Shown piece after piece: positions 3,585 through 62,500 of a stretch of DNA of 64,000 nucleotides; position 1 is the first letter of the stretch; each line of letters opens with the position of its first letter. The position numbers and the translations under genes are program-made. A model generated the notes under the pieces. It searched no databases. It saw only the letters and a program-made list of their open reading frames with translations, and was not told the DNA's origin. This stretch comes from Closterium sp. NIES-65 (taxonomy: Eukaryota; Streptophyta; Zygnematophyceae; Desmidiales; Closteriaceae). The DNA lies in contig CANXME010001269.1 of assembly GCA_948144175.1 (NCBI GenBank), forward strand, positions 375,001 through 439,000. Direction: 5' to 3'.

Positions 3585-6500
3585 ATGCAATGCCAAGCAG
3601 CCATGGCCGTACTACTGCGTGTCCACCAAACTTGCGGCTGTCGTAATGATCCTCATAATGCTCGTCGCGGTGAAAGTCGTTTCGGTCGCAAAGGAGCGGT
3701 TCGCAAAGACGCTGGTCACCTACACCTAACTTTTCCCGCGATTCGAACTCGTCACCGCGTCCCCCGAGCACTCCTCCTCATTCTGTCGTTTCTCTTCGTT
3801 CTGCTGCTCGCGACCCCATCCTATGCGCTAGACACCACCGCCGGTCAATCCGCCGGCGATCACGCCGGACATTGCGCGGATAACAATGCCGCTGGCTCAC
3901 AGACTTGCGCTGCTAGTGCCGACGCGTCGCCCGAAGGATCTGAGGCCTATTCGGATTTAAAGACGTCTGAAATTGGAGCCGAATCTTATCCAGTTGAATC
4001 CGCGGACGACGGAGGATCTAGAAAGCTTGGGAGCGTCGAGCATGACGTGGCAGGATCGGAGCGCGCCATGGTGGAAGACATGCTGACGTGGATGGGACTG
4101 GATTGGACGAGAGATTCGGAAGGATCTGAATATGGCATTGTCGTTGACGGTACTATCGAGGTTAGTGCGGCGAATCTACAGCTCTTTTGGTGCAGTTAAG
4201 TCCCGAGTCCCGGAATACTGCGTGTTTTCGTCAACGCCTCGCGTTTCGCCACCTGCCACGTGGTGTTTCACAAGTGTGTCACCTTCCCGTGCGTCCGCGT
4301 GTCGCCAGGTGGACTTCTCCACTCGCAGCGTGCATGAAGCCGTGCCTGAAGCTCGAGGCGCTTCAGACAATCCCGAGGGTGGTGCAAGCGTGTGGAAACC
4401 GAACGACACGCGGTAGGGACTCAAGCAGGGTTACCACACGGTGTGCCGTAGGGACTCAAAGCATGTGAAGTTTCTCCGATTAAGACATAACTGCTTAGAC
4501 TTCAGCCTCTTACCTGTTTCCGTAGCCAGGCCCTTCGATTCTTGAACCAGCCGTGCCCTGCTTTCTTTCCACTTCGCATCCCCTCCTCCCCATTTATCGT
4601 CCCCTAACGGCACTGGCAGGGCGGACATTGGCTTTAAGGCAGCGCGCAGAATAGAGGCGGGCGAGGTGATCCTGATAGTTCCACGAAGGTTCTTCATAGT
4701 GGCCAACTGGATTGCCCTGGTGAGTGTGGTGTGACTGTGTGTGATTGTGACTGGGTATGGGAGAGTACATGGGTGTGATGAGTCGGTTTTTGAGTCGACT
4801 CAAAAACCGACTCATCAGTGTGGTGTGGCTATGTGTGATTGTGACTGAGTGTGGGAGAGTACATGGGTGTGTGTCACTTTGTATAGCTGGAACCGTGTGG
4901 GTGTGACTGCATGGGTGTGACTGCATGGGTGTGACTGCATGGGTGTTACTGTATGGGTGTGACTTTGTGGGCGTGTGTGAGAGAGAGGCCAACCACGCAA
5001 CCAGTAGGCCTTGCCTCCGTACCTTTCTCTCTCCAATTGTCCCTTTCACCCCCCTCCATCCCTCTCCACCACTCACATCCATCTCCCAACCCCCTTAACA
5101 GAAAGATTCAGAGCGCCATCTCCTCCCATATGACATGCAGCTACCAGTGCCGTACGGGTGGGACACATACACCGTGCTGGCAGCCTGGCTGCTGCGAGAG
5201 AGGGAGGCAGAACACCCAACCATTCATCCCTAGCACACCTCCTTCCTTCCTCCCGTTACTGTGTGCAGAACGAGTCCGAGCGCCATCTGCTCCCCTATGA
5301 CATGATACTACCGGTGCCGTATGGGTGGGACACATACACCGTGCTGGCAGCCTGGCTGCTGCGAGAGAGGGAGGCAGAACACCCAACCATTCATCCCTAG
5401 CACGCCTCCTTCCTTCCTCCCGTTACTGTGTGCAGAACGAGTCAGAGCGCCATCTGCTCCCATATGACATGACACTACCGGTGCCATATGGGTGGGACAC
5501 ATACACCGTGCTGGCAGCCTGGCTGCTGCGAGAGAGGGAGGCAGAACACCCAACCATTCATCCCTAGCACACCTCCTTCCTTCCTCCCGTTACTGTGTGC
5601 AGAACGAGTCCGAGCGCCATCTGCTCCCCTATGACATGATACTACCGGTGCCGTATGGGTGGGACACATACACCGTGCTGGCAGCCTGGCTGCTGCGAGA
5701 GAGGGAGGCAGAACACCCAACCATTCATCCCTAGCACGCCTCCTTCCTTCCTCCCGTTACTGTGTGTAGAACGAGTCAGAGCGCCATCTGCTCCCATATG
5801 ACATGACACTACCGGTGCCATATGGGTGGGACACATACACCGTGCTGGCAGCCTGGCTGCTGCGAGAGAGGGAGGCAGAACACCCAACCATTCATCCCTA
5901 GCACGCCTCCTTCCTTCCTCCCGTTACTGTGTGCAGAACGAGTCAGAGCGCCATCTGCTCCCATATGACATGACACTACCGGTGCCATATGGGTGGGACA
6001 CATACACCGTGCTGGCAGCCTGGCTGCTGCGAGAGAGGGCCAAGGGCGCTGCGTCCCCCTGGGCGCTCTTCCTGCGCTCGCTGCCCGCCTACGTGCCCCT
6101 GCCTGCTCTCTTCCCCCAACAGCTCATCGACCAGTTTGAGTACTGGCCGATCGTTGACCAGGTGGGTGAGTTATGGAGTGAGTGTTAGGGGAAGTCTGGG
6201 AAATAGAGACATGGTTTGCTCTGCATACTCTTCTTCACTCGTAATCCCCTTTTCACACTCCCCTTTTCACACTCCCCTTTTCACACTCCCCTTTTCACAC
6301 TCCCCTTTTCACACTCCCCTTTTCACACTCCCCTTTTCACACTCCCCTTTTCACACTCCCCTTTTCACAATCCCCTTTTCACACTCCCCTTTTCACACTC
6401 CCCTTTTCACACTCCCCTTTTCACACTCCCCTTTTCACACTCCCCTTTTCACACTCCCCTTTTCACACTCCCCTTTTCACACTCCCCTTTTACACTCCCC

Positions 6501-9500
6501 TTTTCACAATCCCCTTTTCATACTCCCCTTTTCACACTCCCCTTTTCACACTCCCCTTTTCACACTCCCCTTTTCACACTCCCCTTTTCACACTCCCCTT
6601 TTCACACTCCCCTTTTCACACTCCCCTTCACATACTCTTTTCACACACTCCGTGCTTGCCTGAGTGTCGTTGCTCGCTACCTCTCCTCTCCGTTTCGCAT
6701 CTCCCATGTCTCCCCCCTTCCCCTCCTTCTCTCCCCTCCTCCGCCCACCCTTACCACAGGCCACGCGTCTCAAGGCAGCACACGCTGACCTATACCATTG
6801 CTGCAGCGGCAACCCCGCTGCCATCCCGTGCTGCCGTTGCCCATGCCTGTTCACTCACTTGATTCCCACCACTCCCCTCACCCCCCCCCCCCCCCCCCCC
6901 CCCACACCACAGGCCACGCGTCTCAAGGCAGCATATGCGGACCTGTACGATCGCTGCAACAGCAACCCCACCACCATCGTCCATGCCTATTCCCTCCTTT
7001 TTTCCCTCTGCTCCCCATCTCCCCCCCGCACTCCACCACAGGCCACGCGGCTCAAGGCGGCATATGCCGATCTGTACGACAGATGCAACAGCAGCAATCT
7101 CGCTGCCATCGCCAACGCCACTCGCTCCGAGTTCTACTGGGCGCTCACTATAGTCACATCGCGCTGCTTCACCTTCTCGCCTTCAATGCGCGCCCGTGGG
7201 GGTGGGGAGGAGCAGCAGGCGGAGGGTGCGGAAGGGGCGGAAGGGGGCAGGGATGGGAGTGCAGATGGGGCAGAAGTAGCAGCAAATGTAGTGGAAGCAG
7301 TAGCAACAGAAGAGGCAGGAGGGGAGTCAGAGGAGGGGAGTACTAGCAGCAGCAGCAACAGTGGTGGCAGTGGCAGGAGAGCGGAGGATTGGTATGCCAC
7401 GTCAGCAGCCATGCTCCCATTCGCTGATCTGTTCAACCATGATTACTACCCCAACATGGGGTGGAAGGTGAGGGGTGGGAGGTGAGGGGTGAAAGAAGTT
7501 GCCATATGTCCCGCTCACCCTCAAAACGCCTGGGTATGAGCCTGATCTGGCTAACTATGAATGATCACCACCCCAACATGGGGATGTGAGGGGTGGAAGG
7601 TGAGGGGTGGGAGGAGCTGCCTTATCTCTCTTCTCTGTTCTCTCCCCTCCCATCTCGCCCTCCTCCAGCTCTTTGGAAACTCCTTCCCCTTCACCATCCA
7701 CCAGACCATCGGGCAAGGAGAGCTGCTGAGATGATCATATGTCCCATCCCCGCCCCACCCCCCCCTTGTCTAACTTCCCTACCCCCCCTCCACGCCCCCT
7801 TCCCTTCTTCCCGCCAGCTGTCAGGTGACCACTTCTTCTTCACGACCTACCAGGCCATGCGAGCCCCTGAGGCATTGTCCCAGCCCTTCCTCGCCCTCTC
7901 CTCCTGCCCCCTCCCCCGCCCCATTACCCCCCTTTTCCCTCCGCTCCAGCTCTCAGGCGACCACTTCCTCTTCACGACCTACCAGGCCATTGAGGAAGGA
8001 GAGCCGCTGAGCATATCATACGGAGCCAAGCCCAGCATTGACATGGTGGCGGAGTATGGCTTCGTGCCTTCATACAACCCTTATGACACCGTCATCCTCT
8101 TCCCCAGGTGAGGTTGTTGCAGTGCATTTGACACCACACTCAGGTGAGAATCCAGTGTTCCCAAGCCCACCATTGACATGGTGGCGGAGTATGGCTTCGT
8201 GCCTGCATACAACCCCTTCGGTACCGTCGTCCTCTTCCCCAGGTAATGTGCGGCATTCCAACTAGTCACAGCAAGCCTTTTGAGGCGCCTCAAAAGTCAT
8301 TCCATCTAGTCACAGCAAGCCCACCATTGACATGCTGGCGGAGTATGGCTTTGTGCCCGCATACAACCCTTATGACTCCGTCGAGCTCTTCCCCAGGTGA
8401 GTGCTGCATTGCATTCCATTGCCCTGTAAACCACTCTTGATTGACCCAACGCCCAAGCCCAACGCTCAAGCCCAACGCCCAAGCCCAACGCCGGATTAAG
8501 GTTCACCCCGGGATGAAGGTTCACCCCCGGATGAAGGCTCACCCCCGGGCCCAAGCCCAACGGCCATGCCCACCATTGACATGTTGGCAGAGTATGGCTT
8601 CGTGCCTCCGTACAACCCTCATGATACTGTCATACTACTCCCCAGGTAAGTTGCTTCATTGCCACAAGTGCACATCATGCCCAGCATCCACATACTCTCG
8701 TTGCACATCATGCCCAGCATCCACATGCTGTCGTTGCACATCATGCCCAGCATCCACAGGCTGTTGTTGCACATCATGCCCAGCATCCACATGCTGTCGT
8801 TGCACATCATGCCCAGCATCCACAGGCTGTCGTTGCACATCATGGCCAGCATCCACATGCTGTCATTGCACATCATGCCCAGCATCCACATGCTGTCGTT
8901 ACACATCATGCCCAGCATCCACATGCTGTCGTTGCACATCATGGCCAGCATCCACATGCTGTCGTTGCACATCATGCCCAGCATCCACATGCTGTCGTTG
9001 CACATCTTGCCCAGCATCCACATGCTGTCGTTGCACATCATGCCCAGCATCCACATGCTGTCGTTGCATGGCTTCGTGCCTGATGATGTTGTGCTTTGCT
9101 TTGCACTCTCGGCCACTCTTATCAGAGTGTATCTAATTTCTCTGGTTTGTTTCGTTGGTCTAGTACAACACGAGATTGGTGGGAGTAAGGCTTTTGCAGC
9201 CCACCTGTCCTCTCTTGACAGCTTTGCACTCTCGGCCACTCTTATCTGAGTGTGTCTAATTTCTCTGTTTGCTCCCCACTCCTCCAACCCTTGTCCAAGC
9301 CTCTATTCCTCGTCCCTCCAACCCTCTGGTTCTTCCCTCCAGCTCTGCTCGTCTGGTGGAGTATGCAGTGCAACAGACGCACCCCACTCAACCGCACCCC
9401 ACCCAGTCACACCCTGCTTATGCAACACTGAGGGGGGCACTGAGGGTTGCGGCGTCGGTGAGGGAGGTGGTGGAGAGGATGAGAGAGGAGAGGCGGACAG

Positions 9501-28893: not shown

Positions 28894-31373
28894 ATGGCGA
28901 CGTCTCGCGTGCTCCGTTTCGACCCTGAGGGGCGTGCGATCGACTTTAGTACCTGGCTGACGCAGGCCCAGCGCCACCTTAGGAGCCAGCGCCAGGATGG
29001 CGGGCACCTGTTTGCGCATGCGTCCGGTGCTCTGCCCGCCCCGCGCCGCAGCCTTCACCACTGCCCACTTCCCCACCGCCTACTTCCGAGCAGGAGGCTG
29101 AGTACCAGCGCCGGTTCCTTGCTCGTGACGTGTGGGAGTCTCGTGACGCTGCTGCCTGCCTCGCCCTGACCGACCTTCTCCCGCCAACTGAGGCTGTCCA
29201 CTTCACTCAGGTCGAGTCTGCTGCAGACCTTTACACTGCTATTGTTGCTCGCTACTCCACTCCCTCCTCTGCCTCCCTCAGCCGCCTCCTCGTCCCCTTT
29301 ATCTACCCTGACCTCGCCTCCTTTGAGACTGTCGCTGACCTCGCTACCCACCTGCGCTCCCTTGAAGCTAGCCTCAAGGCCGCTTGCACTGAGGAACAGC
29401 TTGCCCTTGCACCCCCCCCCATGTGGCTCACTATTCACTGGTTAGTCACTCGCCTCCCTGACCGTCTAGCCACAGCCCGCGACGCGCTTCTCCTGAAGCA
29501 CCCCACTGAGCTTACTATCGATCTTCTTGAGACCGCTCTCTCGAAGATCGAGAGTAACCTCCTCGCTGTTGCCTCCGCCTCTTCCGCGCCTCCTCCTCGT
29601 CTCTTTGAGGGGTGTGCGGTACCACAGCTTCCCACCTTCACTGCCTCGCTTGCCTCTGCCGCGTCTTCTGCCTCTGAGGAGACGGCGGCCGTTTCTGTCT
29701 CTGGCGGACAGAAACGTGGCAAGTCTGGCAAGAAGGGAGGGAAGGGCGGCGGGGATTCTGGGGGTGTTGCGGGTGGCGGCGGTGGCGGTAGTACTAGTGG
29801 CGGGGGTGGCGGCGGGGGTGACTCGGGACCTGACGGCTCTCCTCTAGACGGTGGTGAGGGGTTTTCGCAGCAGCAGCAGCAGACTCCTCCGCAGCTGCCA
29901 CCGCCTGGACAGCAGCAGCGGCAGGGACAGCAGCAGCAGCGCCAGGGCCAACAGCAGCGTCCGCCTCAGCAGCAGCTCCAGCAGTGGGGCACTCTGCAGC
30001 AGTGGGGCACTCATCAGCAGTGGGGCCCTTCGCAGCAGTGGGCCCCCCCGCAGCAGTGGAGACCTACGGGCCCCCCGAGCACTGGGCGCAGTGGTGCCCC
30101 TTCTAGTCGGGGACCCCGCTCGGCCGGCCGCGACGTTGGTCCCTGTGAGTACTGGATCCTGACGGGTCCGCACAGGGGCACGTACTGCGGCCGCCCTGAC
30201 CACTCTGCTGCACGCTGCTTCAGCCGTCTTGACGACCTGTACGTCCTGCACCACGGTCCCTCCGCTCCCCCGCCACCGCGCTGGGGACCACTCCTTGCTC
30301 GTGGTGTTGCTGTGTTTGATATGTCTATGGATGATGCTAGGTCTTATGCCATGTATGCTGATGTTGACTATAGTGCTGTCGGATCTGTTTACTTGCCTGT
30401 ACCTAGCGTAGGATCTTTGCCTGTTGCTAGAGTAGGTGCTGGTGTAGGATCCTGTCTAGCTACTAGTACAGGTGCTCCCTCGGCGGACGCGTCGCTCTCC
30501 TTCACACTGGACTCCGGAGCGACGCAGTGCTTCTTCCGCGACAGCACGACTCTTACTCCACTCTCGGCGCCGGTTTCTGTAGCACTGGCCGATCCCTCTT
30601 CGGGACCGGTCATTGCGACTCACGCCACTACCCTCCCGTGCCCAGCTGCCCCTTCCGGTTCTCTGACCAGCCTCCACGTTCCTACTTTCTCTAGGAACCT
30701 GGTTGGTGTGGCTCCTCTGGCGAGACAGCACGTCGGGGTCTGGTTTGAGCCTTCGGGTGACACTGTAGTCTGTGTGGACGGTGACACGTACGCCCCTCTG
30801 GCCACTTTTCGTCAGGAGCCGGGCTCTGGTCTGTACACCCTCCACACCGACACCCGTCCGGTTCCCCCGTCCCACCAGGTAGCCAGGTCCAGTCAGGTAG
30901 CTGTGCCAGGTCTAGTGGCTGCGTCGTACTCGTGTCGGTCGCTGTCCCACCCTGCCCTCCTCTGGCACCACCGCCTTGGTCACCCGTCCCTCTCTCGTCT
31001 CCGCGCTATGTCCAGTCAGCGTCTTGTCTTAGGCCTCCCCCGCGACCTCCCGCCGCTCCCGCCGTCCCCCGCTCCTCCGTGCGGTCCTTGTGTCCAGGGT
31101 CGGCTGCGCGCCACTCCTCACTCCTCCTCCCTTCGTCCAGCCTCCGAGCCCTTTGAGACACTCCACTTAGATGTCTGGGGCCCCGCTCCCCGGCTTGGAC
31201 CTGAGCGAGAGCGCTTCTTCCTAGTGGTCGTTGACGACTACTCTCGGTACACCACCGTGTTCCCTTTGGCGAAGAAGTCCGACGTGACTTCTTACGCTGA
31301 TCCAGTGGCTGCTCGCCACCGAGAGTACTCGTCGTCGTCGTGTCAGTTGTCTCCACTCCGACCGTGGGGGTGA
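28894..31373 (+). pseudogene. Copia Gag, protease and integrase start, two frames
   Basis: Gag starts at 28894 (MATSRVLRFDPEGRAIDF). A frame change near 29040 leads to the frame read from 29130 (DVWESRDAAACLALTDLL). After the Gag core come a Gly/Gln-rich linker and a Cys/His segment (CGRPDHSAARC), then protease (LDSGATQCFF), the pre-integrase zinc motif (LLWHHRLGHPS, CGPCVQG) and the integrase start (HLDVWGPA, VVDDYSRYTTVF). Another frame change near 31290 interrupts integrase before HSDRGG. Confidence 0.85.
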
Positions 31374-32549
31374 TTTTCGCTCCGGCATTCTCGCCAGATT
31401 CTGTGTTGAGCAGGGCATCACCCAGTCCTGGACTCTTCCAGACTCTCCACAGCAGAATGGGGTTGCTGAGCGCCGGCTAGGCCTGGTCATGGAGATTGCC
31501 CGCACCTCCATGATCCACGCCCGCGCGCCCCATTTTCTATGGCCCTACGCGGCTCGGTACGCCGCTCACCAGCTGAACCTCTGGCCTCGCGTCTCTCGGC
31601 CAGGGGCTTCACCGACCAGTCTTTGGACAGGGTCCCCTGGTGTTGCGTCAAGGTTTAGTGTCTGGGGCTGCTTGGCGCTTGTCCGCGACACCTCTGCGGA
31701 CAAGCTCTCACCTCGCGGCGTCCCCTGTGTCTTCCTTGGTTTCCCTGAGGCCTCCTCTGACTTCACCTTTTACCACCCTCCCTCCCACCGGTTCTTTGAC
31801 TCTCGTGACGTCAGTTTCGACGAGTCCGTCCCCTACTACGTCCGGTACCCCTGTCGAGGTCTCTCGGTTCCCCCCCCTCCCCTCTTCCTCGCCCCAGCTC
31901 CTCCTCCTCCCGCTCCCTCTCCTCCGGTACCCCCCCCGGTTCCCGCTCCGTCAGGTGTGTCGCAGGCTACCCCCCCTCCCTCGGTCCCCCCCCAGGTCTC
32001 TCCTCCTTCCCCACAGTCGTCCTCACAGCCTCCGCAGCAGCCGTCGGCGCTTCCTCTCCCGGCCACTGCGGACTCTGAGGGTGTTGGTGCTCGAGGTGAG
32101 GGCTCTGGCGGTGCCGGTTCTGGGGGTGTTGGAGTTGGAGCTGAGCGTGCACCTGCCGCAGCTGCACGTCCCGAGCGTGTTGGAGTCGGTGGTGGTGCTG
32201 GAGCTGGTGGTGTTTCTGGAGCTGGAGAGTCTGGGGCTGGTGCTGGTGCCACTGGCGGTGCCACGACTGGGGGTGCGGGTACACCTCCTACAGGTACTAG
32301 TCGTGCTGCCGCAGGGGGTCATCGCTCTGCGGGTGCTCAGCCGGGTCCTGTCGAGGGTGGAGCCGGTTCTTCTTCGTCGTCTCCTGACACCACTCCTCCT
32401 CCTCACCCCTACCCGACTCGTTACCAGGCCCTTCGTCTTCTAGAGCGTGAGGAGCAGCAGCGTTTGGAGCGTGAGAGGTCGGAGGTTCAGCAGCGGGTGG
32501 AGCGTGAGCGGTTGGAGTTTCAGCAGCAGCAGCAGCCGCAGCCACAGCC

Positions 32550-32594
<45 letters not shown>

Positions 32595-32595
32595 G

Positions 32596-32626
<31 letters not shown>

Positions 32627-33480
32627 CGCAGCCACAGCCACAGCAGCAGCAGCAGCAGCCGCAGCAGCAGCAGCAGCAGCCGCCGCAGCTGCCGGAGCAG
32701 CCTCCGGCCCCTGTTTCTGGCCTTCGGGCCCTTGGTCTCCCCTCCTCTCCTCCTGTGTTCGGTCCCACGTTTCCTCCTCCGGACTCCACTCCGGCTGTCT
32801 TCCCTCGTTCTCAGTCTCCTCCGTCCCCCCCTCCTCTCGCCCACACTTGGGCCTCTCGCCCTCCTCGTGCTCGTCCCTCGTCCCCTGTCACTGACCTCCG
32901 TACCGTGTTGTTTCGTCCTCGTCCTCCTCGTTCTCCTCCGTCTGTCCTTCCTCGTCCTCCTGAGTCTTCCCTCACTGCCTCCCTGTCCACTCCGGTCACT
33001 GACTACTACCGCACGTACCGCCCCACTCTCTCTCGTGTTCTCGCCTCTCTTGTTACAGACCCTCGTGCCTCTCCTTCCTCCGTCGCGGTCCTCACTGCCG
33101 CTGTCACTGACTTTACTGCTACGCGTCGCCTTGACTACGCCACTCGAGTTGTGGCAGCTCCTCCTGACCGTCCTCTGTCCGCCGGGGGTGTGTGTGCCCT
33201 TGGCTGTGACGTCCTAGAGGACAGACAGTTTGAGCTAGAGTTCCTGGCAGCTGCTTCGCCTCATCTCTGTGCCATGCTGCTCACTCCTGAGGGAGACCCC
33301 GACGCTCCTGACATACCTACTCCTCGCACTTATGCTGAGGCAGTGTCAGGGCCTTGGGCCTCTCAGTGGAGAGCTGCCATGGACGCAGAGATGGCTCCTA
33401 CAGGTCCACAGGCACTTACGTTGACGAGGTTCCCCCCCCAGGGGCGAACATTGTTGACGGCATGTGGATCTTCAAGGTGA
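31365..33480 (+). pseudogene. Copia integrase remainder and polyglutamine linker
   Basis: Contains HSDRGGDF, DSPQQNGVAERRLG, CVFLGF and DVSFDESVPYY. A Pro/Gly-rich linker follows, with a CAG/CAA tract at 32521-32695 encoding a nearly pure Gln/Pro run. It ends with MDAEMA, where the frame changes again (about 33390) before RT. Confidence 0.85.
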
Positions 33481-34874
33481 AGCGGCCGCCGGGATCTCCC
33501 CCAGTCTTCAAGGCACGCTACGTGGCTAGAGGGTTCAGTCAGCGCGAGGGGGTTGACTTCTTTCAGACCTTCGCGCCCACCCCGAAGATGACCACTCTTC
33601 GGGTGTTACTGCACGTAGCAGCGCAGAGAGACTATGAGCTACACTCTCTTGACTTCTCCACTGCCTTCCTCCAGGGCTGCTTACACGAGGAGATCTGGCT
33701 GCGTCGTCCTCCGGGCTTCACTGGCACTTTCCCGCCTGGGACCCAGTGGAGCCTCAGACGACCGGTCTACGGCCTCCGCCAGGCACCCCGTGAGTGGCAC
33801 GACACTCTCCACTCTACTCTCTCCGACCTCGGGTTTGAGCCGTCTTCCGCCGACCCGTCGCTGTTTGTTCGTCGTGGCCGTACACCTTTCTTCGTCCTAG
33901 TCTACGTTGACGACTTGGTTTTTGCCACGGCCGACACAGCTGCACTGGCGGAGGTGAAGTCCGAACTGCAGAACAGACACACCTGCACTGACCTTGGGGA
34001 ACTGCGCCGCTATCTTGGCCTGCAGATCTCCAGGGACAGAGCCGCTCGCACCATCACTCTCACTCAGTCACACATGGTGCAGCAGGTTCTTCAGCGGTTC
34101 GGGCTTCAGGACTCTTCTCCTGCCCCCACTCCTCTTGCTGTAGACCACAGACTCACTGGGCCTTTTCCTGACGAGCCGTTCGAGCCTAGTGGTCCCTACG
34201 CAGAGCTGGTGGGCTGCCTCATATACCTGATGACGTGCACTCGCCCGGACCTCGCCTTCCCCCTTAGCATCCTGTCTCGCTTTGTTGCGACTGGGAGACA
34301 CCGTCCTGTTCACTGGGCGGCGGCTAAGAGGGTGGCGAAGTACCTTGGCGCGACATCAGGCATGGGGCTTGTACTTGGAGGGACACAGCCAGTTGTACTC
34401 ACCGGTCACTGTGACTCTTCCTACGCTGACGACGTTGAGACTCAGAGGTCTACGCAGGGTTACTGTTTCAGCCTGGGTTCTGGAGCTGTTTCGTGGAGGT
34501 CTACTCGGTCCTCCTCTGTTGCGACTTCTACCGCAGAGGCCGAGATCTACGCTGGGGCCCTTGCTGCTCAGGAGCTACGCTGGTTGACCTTTTTGCTCAC
34601 TGACCTTGGTGAGCGGCCGAGCTCTGCACCGACCCTGTTTGCTGACAACAGGGCGATGATTCTCCTGTGTCGTGAGCCTCGACTGGAGAGCAGAGTGAAT
34701 CACATCGACGTCAGGTACTTCCTCCTTCGAGAGTTGCACAGACGCGGACAGGCTCGTCTGGACTTTGTGGCCTCCGAGGCCAACACTGCAGACATCTTCA
34801 CCAAGGCCCTCCAGCCTTGTGACCACCGTCGGTTTTGTCTGCAGTTAGGCCTCGTTGAGACTGGGTCTAGTTGA
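33390..34874 (+). pseudogene. Copia reverse transcriptase and RNase H
   Basis: RVT_2-type RT starting at VDEVPPPGANIVDGMWIFK, with KARYVARGFSQ, LDFSTAFLQG and the catalytic VYVDDLVFA. RNase H follows, with HCDSSYADD, STAEAEIYAG, FADNRAMILL and VASEANTADIFTKAL. The frame is uninterrupted from RT to the stop at 34874, about 230 bases before the 3' LTR. It would be intact if the frame change at its start is an assembly error. Confidence 0.9.
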
Positions 34875-36390: not shown

Positions 36391-36696
36391 ATGGCTTTAA
36401 CTCGCTTCACGGGCGGCAACGCGAACAACTCGTCGCACGCGCCGCTCCCGGCGAGAGTGCCGGCGCAGGAGACGGCGGTGGAGAGGAGGAAGAAGGACGC
36501 GCAGATGACGTTGAAGATAGACGTTCCTCCCATCACCATGGCGCGACGGCGAATGAGGGAAGGCGGATTGGTGGAGTTCGGCGCGCAGGTTCGACAAGTG
36601 ACTTTTTTAAGTCGACTCAAAAGTCACCGCGAGGGAACGGCGGATAGCGGATCAGACCGACGCGCGGGGATGCCTAGTCTGCTGCGAAAGATGTAA
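36391..36696 (+). CDS. Small orphan ORF, possibly a first exon
   Basis: A 101-residue frame starting MALTRFTGGNANNSSHAPLP, rich in Arg and Ala, with no family I recognise. A possible donor (GCGCAGGTTCG, about 36586) suggests that only the first 65 or so residues may be coding. A near-palindrome of the TTTTGAG family lies just after that point, within the open frame. Coding status is uncertain. Confidence 0.3.
   Translation: MALTRFTGGNANNSSHAPLPARVPAQETAVERRKKDAQMTLKIDVPPITMARRRMREGGLVEFGAQVRQVTFLSRLKSHREGTADSGSDRRAGMPSLLRKM
36598..36627. repeat. Near-palindrome of the TTTTGAG family
   Basis: Arms GTGACTTTTTTAAGTC and GACTCAAAAGTCAC around TCGA. The left arm has two extra T and one G-to-A change. 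I see no obvious direct repeat on either side, unlike the other members. Confidence 0.75.
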
Positions 36697-45007: not shown

Positions 45008-45038
<31 letters not shown>

Positions 45039-46459
45039 GGTGCCGATGGTGTTAGATTCGGTGCAACCTACCGCAACTTCATCACCATCATCAACAGGAG
45101 CAGCAGCAGGAGTAGCTTCACCAGGTCTACCTGGCTCCAACCCATCAGCACCACCACCAGCACCACCCGCAGCAGCAACAGCACTCCACGCACCCTCCTC
45201 CTCCCTCGCCCCCACCGCCCCCTCCTCTCTGCCGCCCGCCCGCCCCATCCGGCTGACCCAGGGCCCCGGGCGGCACCTGGTGGTCCTGGACCACAGCCTG
45301 CAGCGGTTCGTTGACCTGGTTGACTCGCTTGACTCGCCGCCCGCCGTGCGCCTCTGCTGCCTGGCGTCGGGGCGGGTGCTGGCGGTGATCTTCCAGCAGC
45401 ACTCGCCCAACCCCCGCGTGCAGCGCCTGCAGCTGCGGCCGCCTGAGCTTGTGGAGGTGACTGCTGCTGATGGTACCACCCTGCACGGGGCCATTTACCG
45501 GTGAGTGCTGGCATAGGGAAACCCTCTCCTTCGGGGCGAGTGCTGGCGGTGATCTTCCAGCAGCACTCGGCCAACCCCCGCGTGCAGCGCCTGCAGCTGC
45601 GACCTCCCGACCTCGTGGAAGTGACTGCTGCTGACGGCACCACCCTGCACGGGGCCATCTACCGGTGAGTGTGGGCTCTGGGCTCTGGGCTCTGGGCTCC
45701 CCTCCCTCGGGGCGAGTGCTGGCTGTGATCTACCGGTGAGTACCGTCTTTGGACACTCTTTGGGGCGAGTACAGCCACTGGGGAACCCTCCCTCAGGGCG
45801 AATGCTGGCGGTGATCTTCCAGCAGCACTCGCCCAACCCCAGAATGCAGTGCCTGCAGCTCCGGCTGCCAGAGTTGGTACAGGTGACTGCTGCTGACGGC
45901 ACCACCCTGCACGGGGCCATTTACCGGTGAGTGTGTATGGGGGGATTGCAGGATCATTCTCTGGGTGTTGACTTTTGAGGCGCCTCAAAGGTATCACGGG
46001 ACCACAGGATCATCCTCTGGGTGCTGTTATGTGGGGGTGGCATGTGCAGCAGTCTCGTCCCGCCTGAGCTCATGCAGCTCACTGCTGCAGATGGCACCGC
46101 ACTGCTCGGGGCCATCAGCAGCAGCAGAATCCACTGGTGAGTCTGTATGGGGGGGTTGCAGGAGCATACCTTGCCTGTGTGCAACACTTTATCCCCCCTG
46201 GCCCCCAGTTCTCCCCTCCCCCCTTGCGTGCTGTGGTGAGTATGTCACCTTATCCCCGCTCTCCCCACCCTCTCTTCCACACCCACCCTCTCTCCCCATC
46301 CTCTCTTCCACCACCCTCCCCTCTCCCCCACTTTCCAGCCTGATCCGGCCATCTTTGGTCCACCACCCCACCGCTTGGTGGTGAGTGTATACAGGAGACC
46401 ACATGTGCAGGTGGCGTGTATGGCACCTTATCTCTTCCCTCCCACCCTTTCTCTCTCCC

Positions 46460-53224: not shown

Positions 53225-53590
53225 TTCACACACCCAGTGTGAGCTACATATTCATCGCAGCGAGCTGTATGATGCATACATCCATGCTTCCACTACAGAA
53301 GCCTAACCAGCGAGCCATGCATGCATATAACGATGCACAAACCTGCCCAGCGGTGCAAGCTTGATGTTCATCGTTGCCCAAGGCAGCTGAGCTCAGATGC
53401 GCCTCATGTTTACTTCCAGCCATCGACTCCCCCACAGCGACCTAAGAAATCATCGTGACGTGAAACACCGCAGTCCACACACCCAGTGTAAGCGTGATGT
53501 TCATTGCTGCCAGCTCAGCAGCCAGATACTTGAACACATACGGCATGGCCACTCGCACCACGCCCTTTCGAAGTAGACTCAGAAGTCACA
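53225..53590 (-). repeat. Copies of the RPA2 terminal exon end, downstream of its stop
   Basis: On the minus strand, 53480-53562 repeats [15 protein letters not shown](T)LTLGV almost exactly. More diverged copies of the same segment lie at about 53345-53400 and 53225-53275 (CACCCAGTGTGAGCT...). They lie beyond the stop codon of the real last exon (53595) and so extend the donor-side duplication pattern past the gene end. Confidence 0.75.
53563..53589. repeat. Degenerate TTTTGAG-family element between exon copies
   Basis: TTTCGAAGTAGACTC then AGAAGTCAC, about five differences from the family form TTTTTGAGTCGACTC AAAAGTCAC. It lies exactly between the real end of the RPA2 last exon and its downstream copy. 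Confidence 0.55.
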
Positions 53591-53594
53591 GGCC

Positions 53595-56500
53595 TCACAC
53601 ACCCAGTGTGAGCTTGATGTTCATTGCTGCCAGCTCAGCAGCCAGATACTTGAACACATACGGCATCGCCACTCGCACCACGCCCTTCCCCGTACCACAC
53701 ACACGACACACCATCTTCTTCTGTCGCAGCTCCCCCCCCACCGTCCCATACCCCACGCCAGCCCCCAGCCCCAGGCCTAGCGCCACAGCTGTGTCCGAAC
53801 CTGCCGACCCGCCTCGGGGACGAGACAGCGCCGGAGCTAGCAGGGAGCCGCAGAGAGAGCAGACGTCAGTGGTGTGGTAGTCTGAGCACGAGTGTAGCCG
53901 GTCGTGTAAGAGAAACGCCGCGCCGTGGGACAGCATTGCATCGCGCTCCATCTCTCCGAACCGCACTCCACCGCCCTTCTTCCTCCCCTTCACCGGTTGC
54001 TGCGTGAGCGGGTTCACAGGCCCGGTAGACCGCACCTGGAATTTATCTGATACCATGTGCCGCAGCCGCTGATAATACACCACTCCTAGGTAAATTTCAC
54101 ACTCCATTTCGCACCCGTACACTCCGCTATACATGGTCTCTGTGCCATAGTAGCTGAATCCCTTTTCCACCAGTTGCCGCCCGAATGTGTCCACCAGATC
54201 CTCGCGATTCTGTGGCTGATTTGATTCTCCCGCCCTACCTGCTGCCGCCGGACCTGCAGCAGGTTTGGCAGCCAGGCCAGGCTTGGCAGATGAAGCAGGG
54301 GTTGGGAGATCCAAGGGTGTGAAACTTCCAGGCCCTTTCTCAGCACCACCAGCAGCAGCAGGAGTGACAGGAGTAGCAGGGGTGGGGGGGGCACCAGATT
54401 TCTTGTGCAGTTTTGGGCGGGGTACAGGAGTGGAGAGACCAGGGGTACCAGCAGAGGAACGGGCCAATCGGGAGGCGCCACGTCGCGGGGCGGGCTGGCG
54501 AGACTTGAGGCTCATGGTGAGCGGCGGGGGGTTGGGCGTGGCAGGGCGGAACGGGGAAGCATCCACGAAGTTTCCGTGCAAGGCTCCACCCTGCCATGGA
54601 GGGGAGGAGGTTGGGATGATGCGGAAGGAAAGCAGAACAAACAAGTTTGAAAGGGTATACAAAGAGAGACAAGGGAACAGGGAGGGGGGGGGGGGGTGAG
54701 GGAAATGGAAACATTAGAGGGTTGGGGCGAAATGGACTCAACCTAGCCACCACAGACCCAACGAGCAGGGCAACGCCAAGCCAAGCACATCTCATCTCAA
54801 CTCACCTTGGCTGCAACTGATTCGACGAGCATGCCTATGGTCATGCGCGAGGGGAAGGCGTGGGGGTTGATGATGATGTCTGGACGCATGCCGGAGGAGG
54901 AGGCGAAGGGAGGAAGGGTATCGACTCAGGACACAAGTCACTCTGCACAGCAAACGCCTTTCTCTCACCTTAGCAGCAACTGACTCGACGAGCATGCCAA
55001 TGGTCATGCGCGAGGGGAAGGCATGGGGGTTGATTATGATGTCTGGACGGATGCCGGAGGAGGAGGCGAAGGGCATGTCCACATCGGGCCAGAGCTGTGA
55101 TAGCACTCCCTTCTGCCCGTGCCTGCTGCTGAACTTGTCCCCTATTTGTGGCAGGCGACCAAAGCGCATGCGCACGGATGCCTGCGGGGAAAGGAAGGAA
55201 AAAGGGGAATAGGGGGGTACAGATGGGTGCAGAAGGGTGCAGATGGGTACAACGGAGGTGGTGGGGAGGGGGATCCAGGGAGGGTGGCAGGTCGGCATTC
55301 TAACAGGGGAGGAGGAGGAGGCGAAGGGCATGTCCACATCGGGCCAGAGCTGTGATAGCACTCCCTTCTGCCCGTGCCTGCTGCTGAACTTGTCCCCTAT
55401 CTGCGGCAAGCGCCCAAAGCACATGCGCGCGGAGGCCTGGAACAAGGTACGGGGTGGTACAGGAGTGGCCAAGGGAGAATGGTGGGTGAATCTCACTTCC
55501 CTGAGTACACACCCTTGTGCCCGTGGCGGCTGCTGAACTTGTCCCCTATTTGCAGCATGCGACCAGAGAGGAGCCGAACGGAAGCATGCAACGGCGGGAA
55601 GCAGGGGATGGCAATGCAGGGATACGGGGGAACAGGGACACAGAGATACAGAAGGGTTGTACTTTGGCACCTGCCTAAGCCACTGCCATGCCTGTTCTTT
55701 TCCTGCATCTACTGATCGCACCTTAGTGAGGGCTGTCTTGGGGCCGGTGCCGGTGAGTGTGGGTGAACCCATCCACCACCGCATCCTCCCACCCCTTCAG
55801 TTTCATCTCATCCGCTCATGATCAGAGTGAACCCTCCCCCCACGATCCCCCTGTGCCTACTCAGCTGAATGCCCTCTCATCTGACCCTCCCACGCACCTT
55901 GGTGGGCGCTGTCTTGGGGCCGGTGCCGATAAGCGTGCCGATAAAAGAAGGAGTGTTTTGAGACGTCTCAAAACACTCCTTCTTTCACGTGGTTTCAATA
56001 ACCGTGCCGATGAGCGTGACCCCATCCACCACCGCATCCTCCCACCCCTTCAACCCCTCCAGCCATCCTCCCCACCGTTGACGACCCCAATACCCCCCCA
56101 CCTTTCCTGCACCTTCTATCAAACCTCACCACAGAGGTTCAGGGCCGCACCTTAGTGAGCGCTGTCTTAGCGCCGGTGCCGATGAGCGTGACCCCGTCCA
56201 CCACCGCATCCTCTGACCCCTTGAGCTTGATCTCGTCCGCCTTGCCCGTCACCGTGTTCACCTTGCATGCATACACGTCGCCGCTCGTGATGTGCTGTTA
56301 AGGGGGTAGCGGAATGAAAGGGAGGGGGGGGGGGATGTGATTTAGATAGCACCAATTCTGTCGCCTCCGCCTTGGCCCCTTGCCAGCCGCCCCCCCATCA
56401 TCCCCCTACCTCCCTCCCTCCGCGCCCCCTCCCCTCATAACAAACGCACCTCCCCGGGGCGGGGCAGCCCATCGGTGTCGATGGTCCACTTGTGCCCGCG

Positions 56501-59500
56501 CCTGTTCCCAGCCGCCCGCCCCAGCATCTGCACTGCCAGGCCAGCCCTTTGCCTCTCTCTCTCCCTCCCTCCCATTCGCCCACTTAATCCCTTGGTTCAT
56601 TCACTCACGCACCTCCCCAGGGCGGGGCAGCCCATCAGTGTCAATGGTCCACTTGTGCCTGCGCTGGTTGCTAACAGGCCGCCCCAGAATCGGCACAGGC
56701 AAACCCTCCCCCTCTGCGCTCACCTCCCCAGGGCGGGGCAGCCCATCGGTGTCGATGGTCCACTTGTGTCCGCGCCGGTGACTGGCCGCCCGCCCCAGCA
56801 TCTGCACGGGCAGCCCGGACGGCGTGAACTTGGCCACACGTGCCGCTGAGCCCTGGGTGGCCTCGATCACCTCGTTCTGTTACGGAGTGGGATCCGGGCG
56901 GCGGGCGGGCGGCAAGACAGAGATGTGGCAAAACAAAAGGAGGCTCATGAGGGTACAGGGCGTGGGTGGGTATCGAATTGGCTCAGGTGCATTGTAGAAC
57001 TAACAGTACCATGTGGATGTAACCGTACCTTGTAGATGTAACCGTACATTGTAGATGTAACCGTACCTGGTAGATGTAACCGTACCTGGTAGATGTAACC
57101 GTACCTTATAGATGTAACCGTACATTGTAGATGTAACCGTACCTTGTATATGTAACCGTACCTTGTAGATGTAACCGTACATTGTAGATGTAGCCGTACC
57201 TTGTAGATGTAACCGTACATTGTAGATGTAACCGTACCTTGTAGATGTACCCGTACCTTGTAGATGTAACCGTACCTTGTAGATGTAACCGTGGCCAAAG
57301 CCCCTCTCCATGGACGACTTGTTGATGATCATCGCATCCTCCATGTCGTACCTGGTGCACGGGCAGGTGAACGGGCAGGTGCACGGGCAGGTGAACGGGC
57401 AGGTGCACGGGCAGGTGTACGGGCAGGTGTACGGGCAGGTGTACGGGCAGGTGAACGGGCAGATGAATGGCGAGTAACGGGCACACATGGCGTTGGAAGA
57501 AAACAAGCGAGTGGGACGTGTGAGATAGAGCAGACGCACAGCCATGGGAGTCGTACAACTATGAGGTGTACCCCTTACAGCAAACCCCACATACCTGGTA
57601 TAAGCCAGCACGGGCACGGCCACCACAGCATTGGCTCCCGCTATACCTGTGCAAAGGGGCGAGCCGAGTAATGCTCGACTCCTCCCTAGCCTTGCTCGGC
57701 CGAGTACGAGCCCGAGTCGAGTAATACTCGGCCGAGCATTTTTCCCCCAAACAGATACTCGGTACTCGCCTTTTTAAAGGAAACTCGGGCGAGCATTTAG
57801 AAAAGCTCATCCGAGTACGAGTAATGCTCGGCCATGTGCCCTACTCCTGCATATAATGACTCTGTACGTTACATCTAGTGAAGGCCATTGGTACCACGGG
57901 AGTATTGGGGTTTCCAGGGCCGCCCAGGCAAACCCAAGGTGGTCCCAGGAAGCCTAGGGAAGCCCAGGAAAGCCCTGGGTTGCCCTGGGTAGCCCAGGGT
58001 AGACCTGGATAGGCGAGTACTCGTCGAGCAAAAAAAACTCGGCGAGTAAAACTCGGCTCGACTCGCCCGAGTAAAATTTACAAAAACCGAAACTCGTTAC
58101 TCGCACCCAAACGAGTAACGCGGGCGATACCGAGCGAGTAACTCGTCTCGTTGCACAGGTATAGCTCCCACCGGGTGTTGATCCTTGGCATAGTCATCAT
58201 ACGCTGCCGTGCTGCTGCCCACTCACTCACCCATCCCCCTTGTAGCACACCCACATACTCAGTATAAGCCAGCACCGCAACGACAGCGTTGGCCCCAGTG
58301 GGGTAGTGGTCCATGGCATAGTCGTCATACGCTGCCGTGCTGCCCCCCCCTCTCCCATCCATGATCCATTCCCCCAATAGCACACCCCACATACCAGGTA
58401 TAAGCACATACCCGGTATAAGCACATACCCGGTATAAGCCAGCACGGCCACGACCGCGTTGGCCCCAGTGGGGTAGTGGTCCATGGCATAGTCGTCATAC
58501 GCTGCCGTGCGTGCGATGGGCGTCTGGGGCGTCTGTAGGCGGTACAGCTTGTTGTCGTTGCGGAAGGGGAACGAGTGCAGCGGCATGCCCATCGTTTGCT
58601 TCCCCATCTGTTGTATACAGACATATGAGACACATGCATGGTGGGCCAACACACACACACATCCATGTTGAGACGATGGGCAGTAAGAGCACATCAGCAG
58701 CACATGCTGACCTGGCACTGGTACATGCTGTGCTGACCCGACACTTGTACAAGCTGTGCTGACCTGTCAAGGGTACATGCTGTGCTGAACTGGCACTGGT
58801 ACATATTGTGCTGACCTGGCACTGGTACATGTTGTGCTGACCTGGCACTGGTACATATTGTGCTGACCTGGCACTGGTACATATTGTGCTGACCTGGCAC
58901 TGGTACATGTTGTGCTGACCTGGCACTGGTACATGTTGTGCTGACCTGGCACTGGTAAATATTGTGCTGACCTGGCACTGGTACATATTGTGCTGACCAG
59001 GCACTGGTACATCCTGTGCTGACCTGGCACTGGTACATGTGCTGACCTGGCACTGGTACATATTGTGCTGACCTGGCACTGGTACATATTGTGCTGACCT
59101 GGCACTGGTACATGTTGTGCTGACCTGGCACTGGTACATGTTGTGCTGACCTGGCACTGGTAAATATTGTGCTGACCTGGCACTGGTACATATTGTGCTG
59201 ACCTGGCACTGGTACATCCTGTGCTGACCTGGCACTGGTACATCCTGTGCTGACCTGGCACTGGTACATGTTGCGGGGGCTCTGGTTGTAATCGGACCAA
59301 GGGGTCAGGCTCGCCATCACACTCAGGATATCCGTCGGCCGAACCTCCTCGTGCGTCGCCGAACCTGTCGCCGAGGCTTGGCCGGACGGGGCGGAAGGGG
59401 CCGACGAACCATCGGGGCAGAGCACGTCAAGAAAGACCTGCCGGGGGAGAAAGGCCGGGAAGGGGTGGGGAAGGAAGAGGACGGGGAGAGGGATTTTTGC

Positions 59501-62500
59501 GTCGACTTGAAATTCACGATGAGCATCCGGGCAGAGCACGTCGAGAAAGACCTGATAGGAAGGGAGGAAGAGGGGGATGAAGGAGAAGAGACGGAAAGGA
59601 GTAGGGGGGAAGGGGGAGACGGGGTACAAGAGAGAAAGGGGAAAAGTGGGAGAAGAAAGAAAGAGACATGGGAGAGTTGTAGTCCTGTGAGTGGATAGGG
59701 AGAGTACGCATGGTGGGCGTGGGCGAGTGAGAAGCAGAACCCAGCAGATGTAGCTCAGTGCTCTGCTCTGCTTCTCACATGCCCACGCCCACCACGTGTA
59801 CTCTACCTACCTCGCTCCCATGCCGTTCTCGTTGCTACTACTGCTACTCCAGTGCCCACCTGCTCCAGTACCCACCTGCCCCAGTGCCCACCTGCTCCAG
59901 TGCCCACCTGCTCCAGTGCCCACCTGCCCCAGTGCCCACCTGCCCCAGTGCCCACCTGCCCCAGTGCTCACCTGCTCGAGGCTGCCAATGAGCTCGAAGG
60001 TGGGTGCAGCGGCGGCCCTGGGGTTGAGGGAGGGCAGCTGCCGCACAGGCCGAACGAAGCGAGCCGGCGCAGAGAAGAGGAAAATGCCCGGGAAGGTTCC
60101 TTGCTGGGAGAAGGGGATGAAGGCGACCTCTAGGTCCCGAGGGATCTGCGAGCAGAGGGGGGAGGTTTGGGTGCGGGGGGGTGGAAGAAGGGAAACATGG
60201 GTTGGAGTGGAAAAAGGGGAAAGGTGGAGGTAATGGTATTGGTATTGGTGATAGTTATGGTAGTGGTAATGGTAATAATAATGGTAATGCTAATGGTAAT
60301 GGTGATGGTAATGGTAATGGGAACGGTGATGGTAATGATAACGGTGATGGTAATGTTAATGGTAATGGTAACGGTGATGGTAATGGTAACGGTGACGGTG
60401 ATGGTAATTGCAATGGTAACCGTGATGGTGATGGTAATGGTAATGGTGACGGTGATGGTAATTGTAATGGTAACGGTGATGGTAATGGTAATGGTAATGA
60501 TGACGGTGATGGTAATTGTAATGGTAACGGTGATGGCAATGGTAATGGTGACGGTGATGGTAATTGTAATGGTAACGGTGATGGTAATGGTAATGGTAAT
60601 GGTGACGGTGATGGTAATTGTAATGGTAACGGTGATGGTAATGGTAATGGTGACGGTGATGGTAATTGTAATGGTAACGGTGATGGTAATTGTAATGGTG
60701 ACGGTGATGGTAATTGTAATGGTGACGGTGATGGTAATTGTAATGGTAACAGTGATGGTAATTGTAATGGTGACGGTGATGGTAATTGTAATGGTGACGG
60801 TGATGGTAATTGTAATGGTAACAGTGATGGTAATTGTAATGGTAACGGTGATGGTTATGGTAATGGTGACGGTGATGGTAATTGTGATGGTAACGGTGAT
60901 GGTAATGATAATGGTGTCCAAACCACACCCCAACCATAGAAACACACATTTAGAGCCACTCGGATGCTTCACCCCAGCCGGTGCCATCTCGGAATGAATG
61001 TGCCCCATCACACACCCATCCACCATCACCATCAGAGACACTGCCACTAGCCCCACTGAACTGCATACCACACTCACAAGTAGGGGAACAAACAGTTAGT
61101 GCCACTCACCCCAGCCTCCCCAGTGGCCTTAAGGCACCTCAGATGCTTCACCGCGGCCGGTGCCATTTCTGAGTGAATGTGCCCCAGTAGACACCCATCG
61201 AGCATCACCGTCAGAAACACCGGAGGCGGGGCAGGGGGCGGCACCCCCGCCCCCACCGCCGCCAGCCCAAACGGCGCCAGACACCGCAGCACCGCTCGGC
61301 CAATCGCGTCGCGGGACTTCACCGAGCCTACCCCCGAACCTAGCCCCGAGGCTAGGGAGGCTGCTCCGGGAGTTCCGGCAGGTGTGGAGGGGGTGTGGGG
61401 GACGAGAGCAGAGCCAGGGGTGGAGGGGAGGAGGGCTAAGGAGGAGGAGGGGGGCGGAGGGGGAGGGGGAGGCGAGGGGAGGGGGAGTGAGGTCGGTGGT
61501 GACAGTGCATGGGGCTGACAGGTGAGTGAGGAGACCGCAGGGGGCCCCATCGGGTGTGTGCACGGGACACACGAACCCCCACGACCTGCCGTGAGATGAG
61601 ACGGGGTGGGTGGAAAAGAGGGAAGGGGGGTTGAGGTTGGCGGCGACAGTGCATGGGGCTGAGAGGTGGGTGAGCAGGCCACAGGGGGCGCCGTCTGGTG
61701 TGTGCACGGGACACACGAACCCCCACGACCTGCAATTATGGGGTGAGACGCAAGGAGGGGACACTGGAAGATGAGAAATTGAGGAGAGAGGATTGCAGAA
61801 AATTGCAGAAAATTGCAGCGCTACTCCTTGAGTGGTTGAGAAGACCGTAGAGGGTCCCCACCCCTCCCACCTCCGCCCCCCACCCCACTAGGCGCACTCA
61901 CTCTTACAACAGCTTGCGCACAGTGGTGGCGCGGAGAGTGGAGAAAAAAACTCCTTAATGCACTGACCAAAAGTGAGGCAGGTACCGATGCCAGTTCAGC
62001 TTATCCCCTCAGGCACTCTCACCACACAGCCCTATCCCCCTCTCTCTCCCCCCCCCCCTCACCGCACTCACTCTGGCAACAGCTTGCGCACGGTGGTGGT
62101 GCGAAGAGTGGAGATGCACGGACCTAAAGTGAGAGAGGAACCGATGCCAGTTCAGCTTATCCGCCACCACCGTGAACCCCGACCTCTGAGACATGTCCAG
62201 CCCTCACGAGCTCTATTACACCCCCCTCCCTCTCACTCCCACTCGCACTCCCACCCCCACACTAAAGCACACTCACTCTGGCAGCAGCTTGCGCACAGTG
62301 GTGGTCCGAAGAGTGGAGAAGAACGCCCCTCGATGCATGGATCTAAAGTGAGACAGGTAGCGGTGCCAGTTGAGCTTATCCGCCACCACAGTGAGCCCCG
62401 ACCTCTGTTGCATGTACAGCCCTGACGGGCTCGCGAGATTCCCCGTGTTCAGCATGTACTCGATGTCCTTCCCAATAAACGTCATCGCCAGCCCAGCCCT

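Follow-up and report, generated by a model that had tools for sequence, protein, structure and literature searches.

A large family of very short palindromes, often bordered by direct repeats, in the genome of Closterium sp. NIES-65

The window analysed here, a stretch of 64,000 nucleotides from Closterium sp. NIES-65 (C1266:375001-439000), raises the question of why similar short palindromes recur in it, several of them beside or between direct repeats. An earlier note had listed seven such palindromes and offered three origins for them: a tiny mobile or templated insert, a terminal palindrome left after the excision of a larger transposon, or a break-prone hairpin that seeds tandem duplications. 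We searched the whole assembly (874,075,685 bases, 874 Mb, in 2400 contigs) for the core pattern TTTTGAGNCGNCTCAAAA, an 18-bp palindrome with a variable NCGN centre. The core pattern read backwards, likewise a palindrome and of equal composition, served as the control. The core with its NCGN centre had 24,964 exact matches in the assembly, while the reversed pattern had none. When any four central bases were allowed, the core had 30,327 matches and the control 4; by arithmetic, the sixteen fixed bases are expected about 0.2 times by chance in the whole assembly. Within the window, the core was matched six times with at most three mismatches, compared with a mean of 0.16 and a maximum of 2 in 100 dinucleotide shuffles. 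A palindrome family with a shared core is thus real, and chance frequency, the outcome of a genome search that the earlier note had named as speaking against its proposal, is excluded. As to the seven palindromes it had counted in the window, six lie within three mismatches of the core, and that at 53563 lies beyond this limit and is, by eye, degenerate with an indel.

The family is far larger than is visible from the window alone. We also counted inexact cores in 264 kb, composed of the window and 20 fetched stretches (L005-L024), which were picked for holding exact copies and are not a random sample. In these, 57 exact cores, 35 with one mismatch and 26 with two were found, compared with zero in each class for the reversed core; at three and four mismatches, the counts were 24 and 118 for the core and 9 and 60 for the reversed core. 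A viral source for the palindrome was considered and rejected: 11 stretches of viral contigs match the core at one site each, some of these stretches are related to one another, the centre is self-complementary in 2 of the 11, none has a long palindromic extension by eye, and the matches look like chance.

The features of the window are collected in Table 1. Direct repeats are present at sites 4776, 8277, 45974, 53563 and 55944, as had been claimed for six of the seven window palindromes, while none is clear at 36598. At site 45974, where bases 45974-45989 form a perfect 16-bp palindrome, plain local alignment chooses a longer and more distant repeat than the 19-bp one found by eye.

Table 1. 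Palindromes, inserts and direct repeats at the seven sites of the window
Feature	Position	Strand	Remark
42-bp perfect palindrome, TCGA centre, outer arm TGATGAGTCGG (site 4776)	4776..4817	.	same in homologous contig C783 (L056)
left direct repeat of site 4776, 51/55 identical to right copy	4723..4777	+	
right direct repeat of site 4776	4817..4871	+	
20-bp perfect palindrome, GCGC centre (site 8277)	8277..8296	.	1 copy in window, 5 in C783 (last with changed centre)
left 24-bp direct repeat of site 8277, 23/24 identical	8254..8277	+	
right 24-bp direct repeat of site 8277	8298..8321	+	
core with one mismatch, GTGAC/GTCAC flanks, no clear direct repeat (site 36598)	36605..36622	.	same in C783
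core with one mismatch, GCGC centre (site 45974)	45973..45990	.	same in C783
insert at site 45974	about 45968-46004		between 19-bp repeats 45949-45967 and 46005-46023 (18/19, by eye)
decayed relative (site 53563)	53562..53595	.	unit once in window, twice in C783
left 86-bp direct repeat of site 53563	53476..53561	+	
right 86-bp direct repeat of site 53563	53596..53681	+	
66-bp insert, not in C783 (site 55944)	55938..56003	.	contains palindrome 55944-55985 (42 bp, perfect, ACGT subfamily, left end truncated)
left 15-bp target duplication of site 55944	55923..55937	+	
right 15-bp target duplication of site 55944, one mismatch	56004..56018	+	
decayed relative, 3 core mismatches	59495..59512	.	same in C783
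gapped repeats around 59495..59512	59404-59492 and 59516-59606		score 65, not above random-spot 90th percentile

The window appears to be nuclear, judging from its protein domains. DPPIV-type peptidase domains are found in pieces at 43942-45501 and 47189-47824, minus-strand frames situated between 53598 and 63555 encode Rpb2 polymerase domains, and the frames of an LTR-type retrotransposon span 31288-34871 (retroviral polymerase SH3-like domain, 31288-33477; RVT_2 reverse transcriptase, 33339-34871). No core within three mismatches was found inside these retrotransposon frames. Closterium strains are described as carrying duplicated genes on most contigs (PMC10407611). The window also holds tandem duplications of tens to about 170 bp (5230-6020, 8162-8413, 45461-45957 and 61900-62700), by eye likely at exon edges; most are without an intervening palindrome, and 8162-8413 has one. 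Long minisatellite-like arrays lie by eye in or beside genes at 6240-6640, 57000-57290, 58700-59270 and 60220-60900. A second, unrelated dispersed hairpin repeat was noticed at L016:6472-6551: its 80 bp comprise CCTGTTCGGTTCGCCTCGAACGTGTTCGAGGCGAACCGAACAGG followed by a run of T and other sequence, and copies that are 95-99% identical lie on many contigs.

Do direct repeats accompany the palindromes more often than could be expected in such a genome? By plain local alignment of the flanks, the seven window sites score, in order, 90, 121, 23, 74, 157, 103 and 65, while 1000 random spots in the window have a median of 21 and 80th, 90th and 95th percentiles of 57, 115 and 171. The window repeats alone are thus unexceptional, since the window is full of tandem duplications, and the case for the repeats rests on abutting repeats in a larger sample and on empty homologues. 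In the abutting test, a site was scored as positive when it had an ungapped direct repeat with a score of at least 30, the copies of which ended and started within 10 bp of the core; random spots at least 200 bp from exact cores, in the window and in L005-L024, served as the control. Abutting repeats were present at 38 of 55 sites and at 157 of 1500 random spots, and when only isolated sites were considered (no neighbour within 300 bp), at 14 of 25. About 10% of random spots pass the test because the genome is rich in tandem repeats. The enrichment over random sites that the earlier note had predicted is therefore found across the 21 stretches, but not in the seven window sites taken alone by local alignment.

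A qualifying ungapped repeat was lacking at 17 of the 55 sites and at 11 of the 25 isolated ones. Several of the sites that failed have gapped, offset or more distant repeats, and at L010:2020 and L012:5174 nothing was convincing as a direct repeat. Over all loci tested, abutting repeats were found at 66 of 89 sites (92 were found, and 3 were too close to an end); this set adds the array-rich L036 and L041 and drops L042, L051, L052 and L053 as homologues or overlaps and L001-L004 as duplicates. A cruder version of the abutting test was positive at 29 of the 57 exact sites and at 122 of 1000 random spots. An earlier test by plain local alignment gave 51 of 57 sites and 171 of 600 random spots at a score of 30; its result is blurred by arrays and by tandem repeats in the background, and it gave way to the abutting test. 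Filtering for a score of at least 32, an identity of at least 0.94, a length of at least 18 bp and no core inside left repeats at 29 sites, some of them in arrays, with lengths of 18-84 bp, of which the filter itself sets the lower bound. No target motif was evident by eye at the repeat boundaries of these 29 sites, some of which border array neighbours.

The palindrome itself is the whole unit, and lone half-sites, searched genome-wide for two subfamilies, are rare. The half-site TTTTGAGNCG occurs 147 times in the 264 kb; full palindromes account for 102 of these occurrences, and among the remaining 45 a second arm with no more than two mismatches is present in 41. Genome-wide, GACTTTTGAGTCG stands without palindromic continuation at 19 places. 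Inspected by eye, the second arm is clear in nine of these, where it follows extra or missing central bases, damaged in five, and absent in five (L038 and its homologue L053, L044, L048 and L054). For GGAGTGTTTTGAGACG there are 2 such places, one of which was read and proved to be a complete palindrome whose centre has two extra bases. Neither the half-site scan of the 264 kb nor, for the two subfamilies, the genome-wide searches gave any sign of a larger element with half-palindromes as its ends. Near position 1500 of L048 lies a rare one-armed copy, in which half a palindrome and about 23 bp of other sequence stand between direct repeats. At L036, L041 and L047 (near position 1500) and at L071:140-160, the centre lacks one base or has one to two extra bases, and these copies look as if the centre were a junction.

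Copies fall into subfamilies by centre and arms. Among the 89 scored sites, the centre is TCGA in 47, ACGT in 15, GCGC in 15, AATT in 4 and another in 8. The arms track the centres: TCGA often occurs with GAC, TGAC or GGTGAC, and ACGT with GAAGGAGTG in some copies; the TGAC/GTCA extensions described for the window recur in TCGA-centred copies. The longest perfect palindrome among the exact cores examined measures 52 bp (L021:4611) and consists of an ACGTGAAAGAAGGAGTG-core arm and its complement, of the ACGT subfamily. Near-complete relatives of it lie in L058 (C1610) and L060 (C2079) with other flanks, so that the centre and arms of a subfamily are common to unlinked contigs with different flanks. 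The outermost bases vary from copy to copy and, within a copy, from side to side, whereas almost every core is complete; as sites were located by the core, copies truncated within it are undercounted, and truncation inside the core was judged from the half-site counts alone.

Changes in the core tell how copies age. Among 160 sites whose cores have no more than two mismatches, changes confined to one arm number 117 and symmetric ones 2; sites were deduplicated only if identical over 38 bp, and copies in an array can repeat a change. Correction of the hairpin in place, which would keep the arms symmetric, is ruled out by these numbers. Since copies are not kept palindromic in place, the symmetric variants of centre and arms must have arisen at the source, and perfect copies are probably young. 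The decay pattern argues for dead-on-arrival copies of a few masters and against in-place hairpin repair.

The assembly holds pairs of homologous contigs, that of the window being C783, and copy number could be compared at 25 sites: two are filled in one homologue and empty in the other, three differ in array number, and at 20 no difference was seen. Between L046 and L049 the difference amounts to 94 bp: in L046, two 75-bp copies of a repeat X, identical at 75/75 bases, enclose the 19-bp insert TTTTGAGTCGACTCAAAAG, while L049 has X once. Site 55944 of the window is empty in C783, which has one copy of the 15-bp repeat and no palindrome; the aligned segments of the query, 1-538 and 605-901, meet at C783 656919-656933. 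At both sites, the insert is accompanied by the second repeat copy, and where one is missing so is the other. We take the polarity of these empty sites to be insertion, although precise deletion between the repeats would leave the same picture. The identity of the 75-bp copies favours a recent insertion in L046, and the polarity rests mainly on these copies.

Array differences were seen at site 8277, where the window carries one palindrome between two copies of X and C783 the array X(palindrome X)5 with a unit of 44 bp, at site 53563 and, from overlapping alignments only, at L015:3954. No difference in copy number from C783 was seen at the remaining four sites of the window. Thirteen sites were placed in the comparison of C9 with C1759; at 12 the palindrome or its place is present with no copy-number difference seen, and L017:334 is only partly covered by the alignment. 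The homologue of L016:5619 has no palindromic self-match among those listed and is probably no longer perfect. Five more sites were compared in other pairs: L046/L049 contributed two, one of them the empty site, and L038/L053, L050/L052 and L039/L040 contributed one each, L040 alone being exact in the last pair. L039 and L040 also differ by a palindrome-free tandem duplication of 130 bp.

In arrays, X often stands before the first and after the last palindrome, giving the form X(palindrome X)n; a group can comprise as many as 11 cores (at most two mismatches). Elsewhere the outer X is weak or missing, or the group is made up of simple 24-bp satellite units. One group, at L012:6185-6450, has 11 GCGC-type cores (at most two mismatches) at a spacing of mostly 24 bp and resembles a satellite-like outgrowth of the palindrome. 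Such an array form would be expected if insertion with duplication were followed by slippage, or if insertion recurred at one place.

We consider it likely that the palindromes are non-autonomous, ultra-short mobile elements that insert at staggered breaks, where fill-in makes the long direct repeats. In this process, two offset nicks would be made on opposite strands, tens of bases apart. The break would capture a free palindromic DNA, either duplex or hairpin, derived from a small number of source sequences, and fill-in and ligation would then turn the protruding ends into flanking direct repeats. Arrays could grow later through slippage or re-insertion. Breaks with protruding ends made by Cas9 have been shown to yield small tandem duplications via fill-in and end joining (PMC8355091). 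Of the three origins in the earlier note, the tiny mobile or templated insert is the one that the subfamilies, the abutting duplications and the two filled/empty comparisons support. No source gene, transposase or RNA for the palindrome was found in this analysis.

Other processes could be imagined to leave palindromes between direct repeats. A short RNA with the 5' end GNCGNCTCAAAA... might be reverse-transcribed from both offset nicks, with the two cDNAs annealing by their palindromic 3' ends. Such two-ended reverse transcription would give an exact centre, ragged outer ends and a long duplication, and it matches the self-complementary six-base centres (GTCGAC, GACGTC, GGCGCC and GAATTC), the ragged outer ends, the long and variable duplications and the rare junction-like centres with extra or missing bases at L036, L041, L047 and L071. 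We nevertheless regard it as rather unlikely: an RNA gene with this 5' end was not found, lone half-sites are rare in the two subfamilies, no A-tail was seen in the inserts of the 29 filtered sites, and no known RNA family was detected in the window at Rfam gathering scores. That the palindrome came first and, as a break-prone hairpin, stimulated tandem duplication of its flank is less probable still. Array copy number does differ between homologues (1 and 5 at site 8277, 1 and 2 at 53563), for which hairpin breakage may account as later array growth, and palindrome-free tandem duplications occur too, such as that between L039 and L040. Duplication of palindrome and flank together would, however, give equal numbers of palindromes and repeats, while non-array sites show one palindrome between two repeats, and each empty site has a lone repeat copy and lacks the palindrome.

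Two further readings have little in their favour. Inverted ends between direct repeats look like a footprint, as if the ends of a larger transposon had been joined head to head after its excision. Against the 24,964 full palindromes of all kinds, the half-site searches for two subfamilies gave only 19 and 2 places genome-wide, and 14 of the 19 keep a second arm, intact or damaged; neither an intact element with the same ends, sought by half-sites in these two subfamilies, nor an element with internal sequence was seen, and the conserved part is the centre rather than a fixed outer end. We therefore judge excision, and with it the larger transposon that the earlier note had suggested looking for, to be very improbable. 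Finally, the centres match restriction sites, which we take to be those of SalI, AatII, NarI and EcoRI, as might an adaptor or linker introduced during library preparation or assembly. Such an artefact is scarcely credible for copies that decay in one arm, lie at the same place in homologous contigs, belong to more than one subfamily and have diverged genomic repeats on either side.

How do the proposed mobile palindromes compare with known systems? MITEs are non-autonomous elements with inverted symmetry, conserved outer ends and a short target duplication of fixed length. The palindrome family resembles them in being non-autonomous, in its inverted symmetry and in its target duplications, but its centre is conserved instead of its ends, which vary by copy and by side, and its duplications range over 18-84 bp at the 29 filtered sites, with 15 bp at site 55944. 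Target duplications of variable length are shared with LINEs and SINEs. In CRISPR spacer acquisition, insertion at staggered cuts produces a repeat(insert repeat)n architecture; the analogy is formal only, since here there is a single kind of insert, a palindromic one, and each site has its own repeat. Fill-in tandem duplications at staggered breaks were reportedly described by Vaughn and Bennetzen in 2014. Duplications of this kind share with the family the direct doubling of short stretches by fill-in and end joining, but the excerpted text of PMC8355091 does not describe a recurrent palindromic insert between the copies.

The nearest known kind is the mitochondrial GC clusters of Saccharomyces. 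These (for example GC42) are described as short, dispersed, proliferating palindromes, the mechanism of which is unsettled; they have 5 to 25 identical copies of the commonest kinds in one strain, looped hairpins and direct repeats of 2-3 bp, AG or ACT (PMC4478555). The likeness lies in size, symmetry, dispersal and presence or absence between homologues (PMC4478555), the last of which was seen here at 2 of the 25 compared sites. GC clusters are organellar and have 2-3 bp repeats, whereas the family described here has about 25,000 exact copies, perfect palindromes and duplications of 15-84 bp in an apparently nuclear genome. Ultra-short elements of organelles also include the MUSEs of Podospora and the double-hairpin elements of Allomyces. 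The A/T palindromes of Fusarium belong among these as well (PMC7218506). All three are similarly tens of bases long and palindromic, and their mobility is argued from optional presence; they are organellar, though, and the excerpted text does not mention long flanking duplications for them (PMC7218506). No nuclear equivalent was found among open-licence papers, represented by titles and the starts of abstracts, which makes this weak evidence of absence.

A bolder reading, which we consider slightly more probable than not, is that the family forms a new class of mobile element: a nuclear perfect palindrome of about 19 bp at minimum, without fixed ends, that has reached tens of thousands of sites in trans with its centre nearly always kept, doubles 15-84 bp of target each time, seeds X(palindrome X)n arrays and adds to the short tandem duplications of the genome. 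Because filled and empty homologues occur within one assembly and the core can be counted with one exact pattern, the process is measurable across strains and in mutation-accumulation lines. If the interpretation is correct, few DNA units known to spread in a eukaryotic genome would be as small as this palindrome, and it would raise the testable question of what moves 19 bp that offer no fixed ends for recognition. Short direct and tandem duplications, usually credited to anonymous break repair, would also be linked to a specific insertion event.
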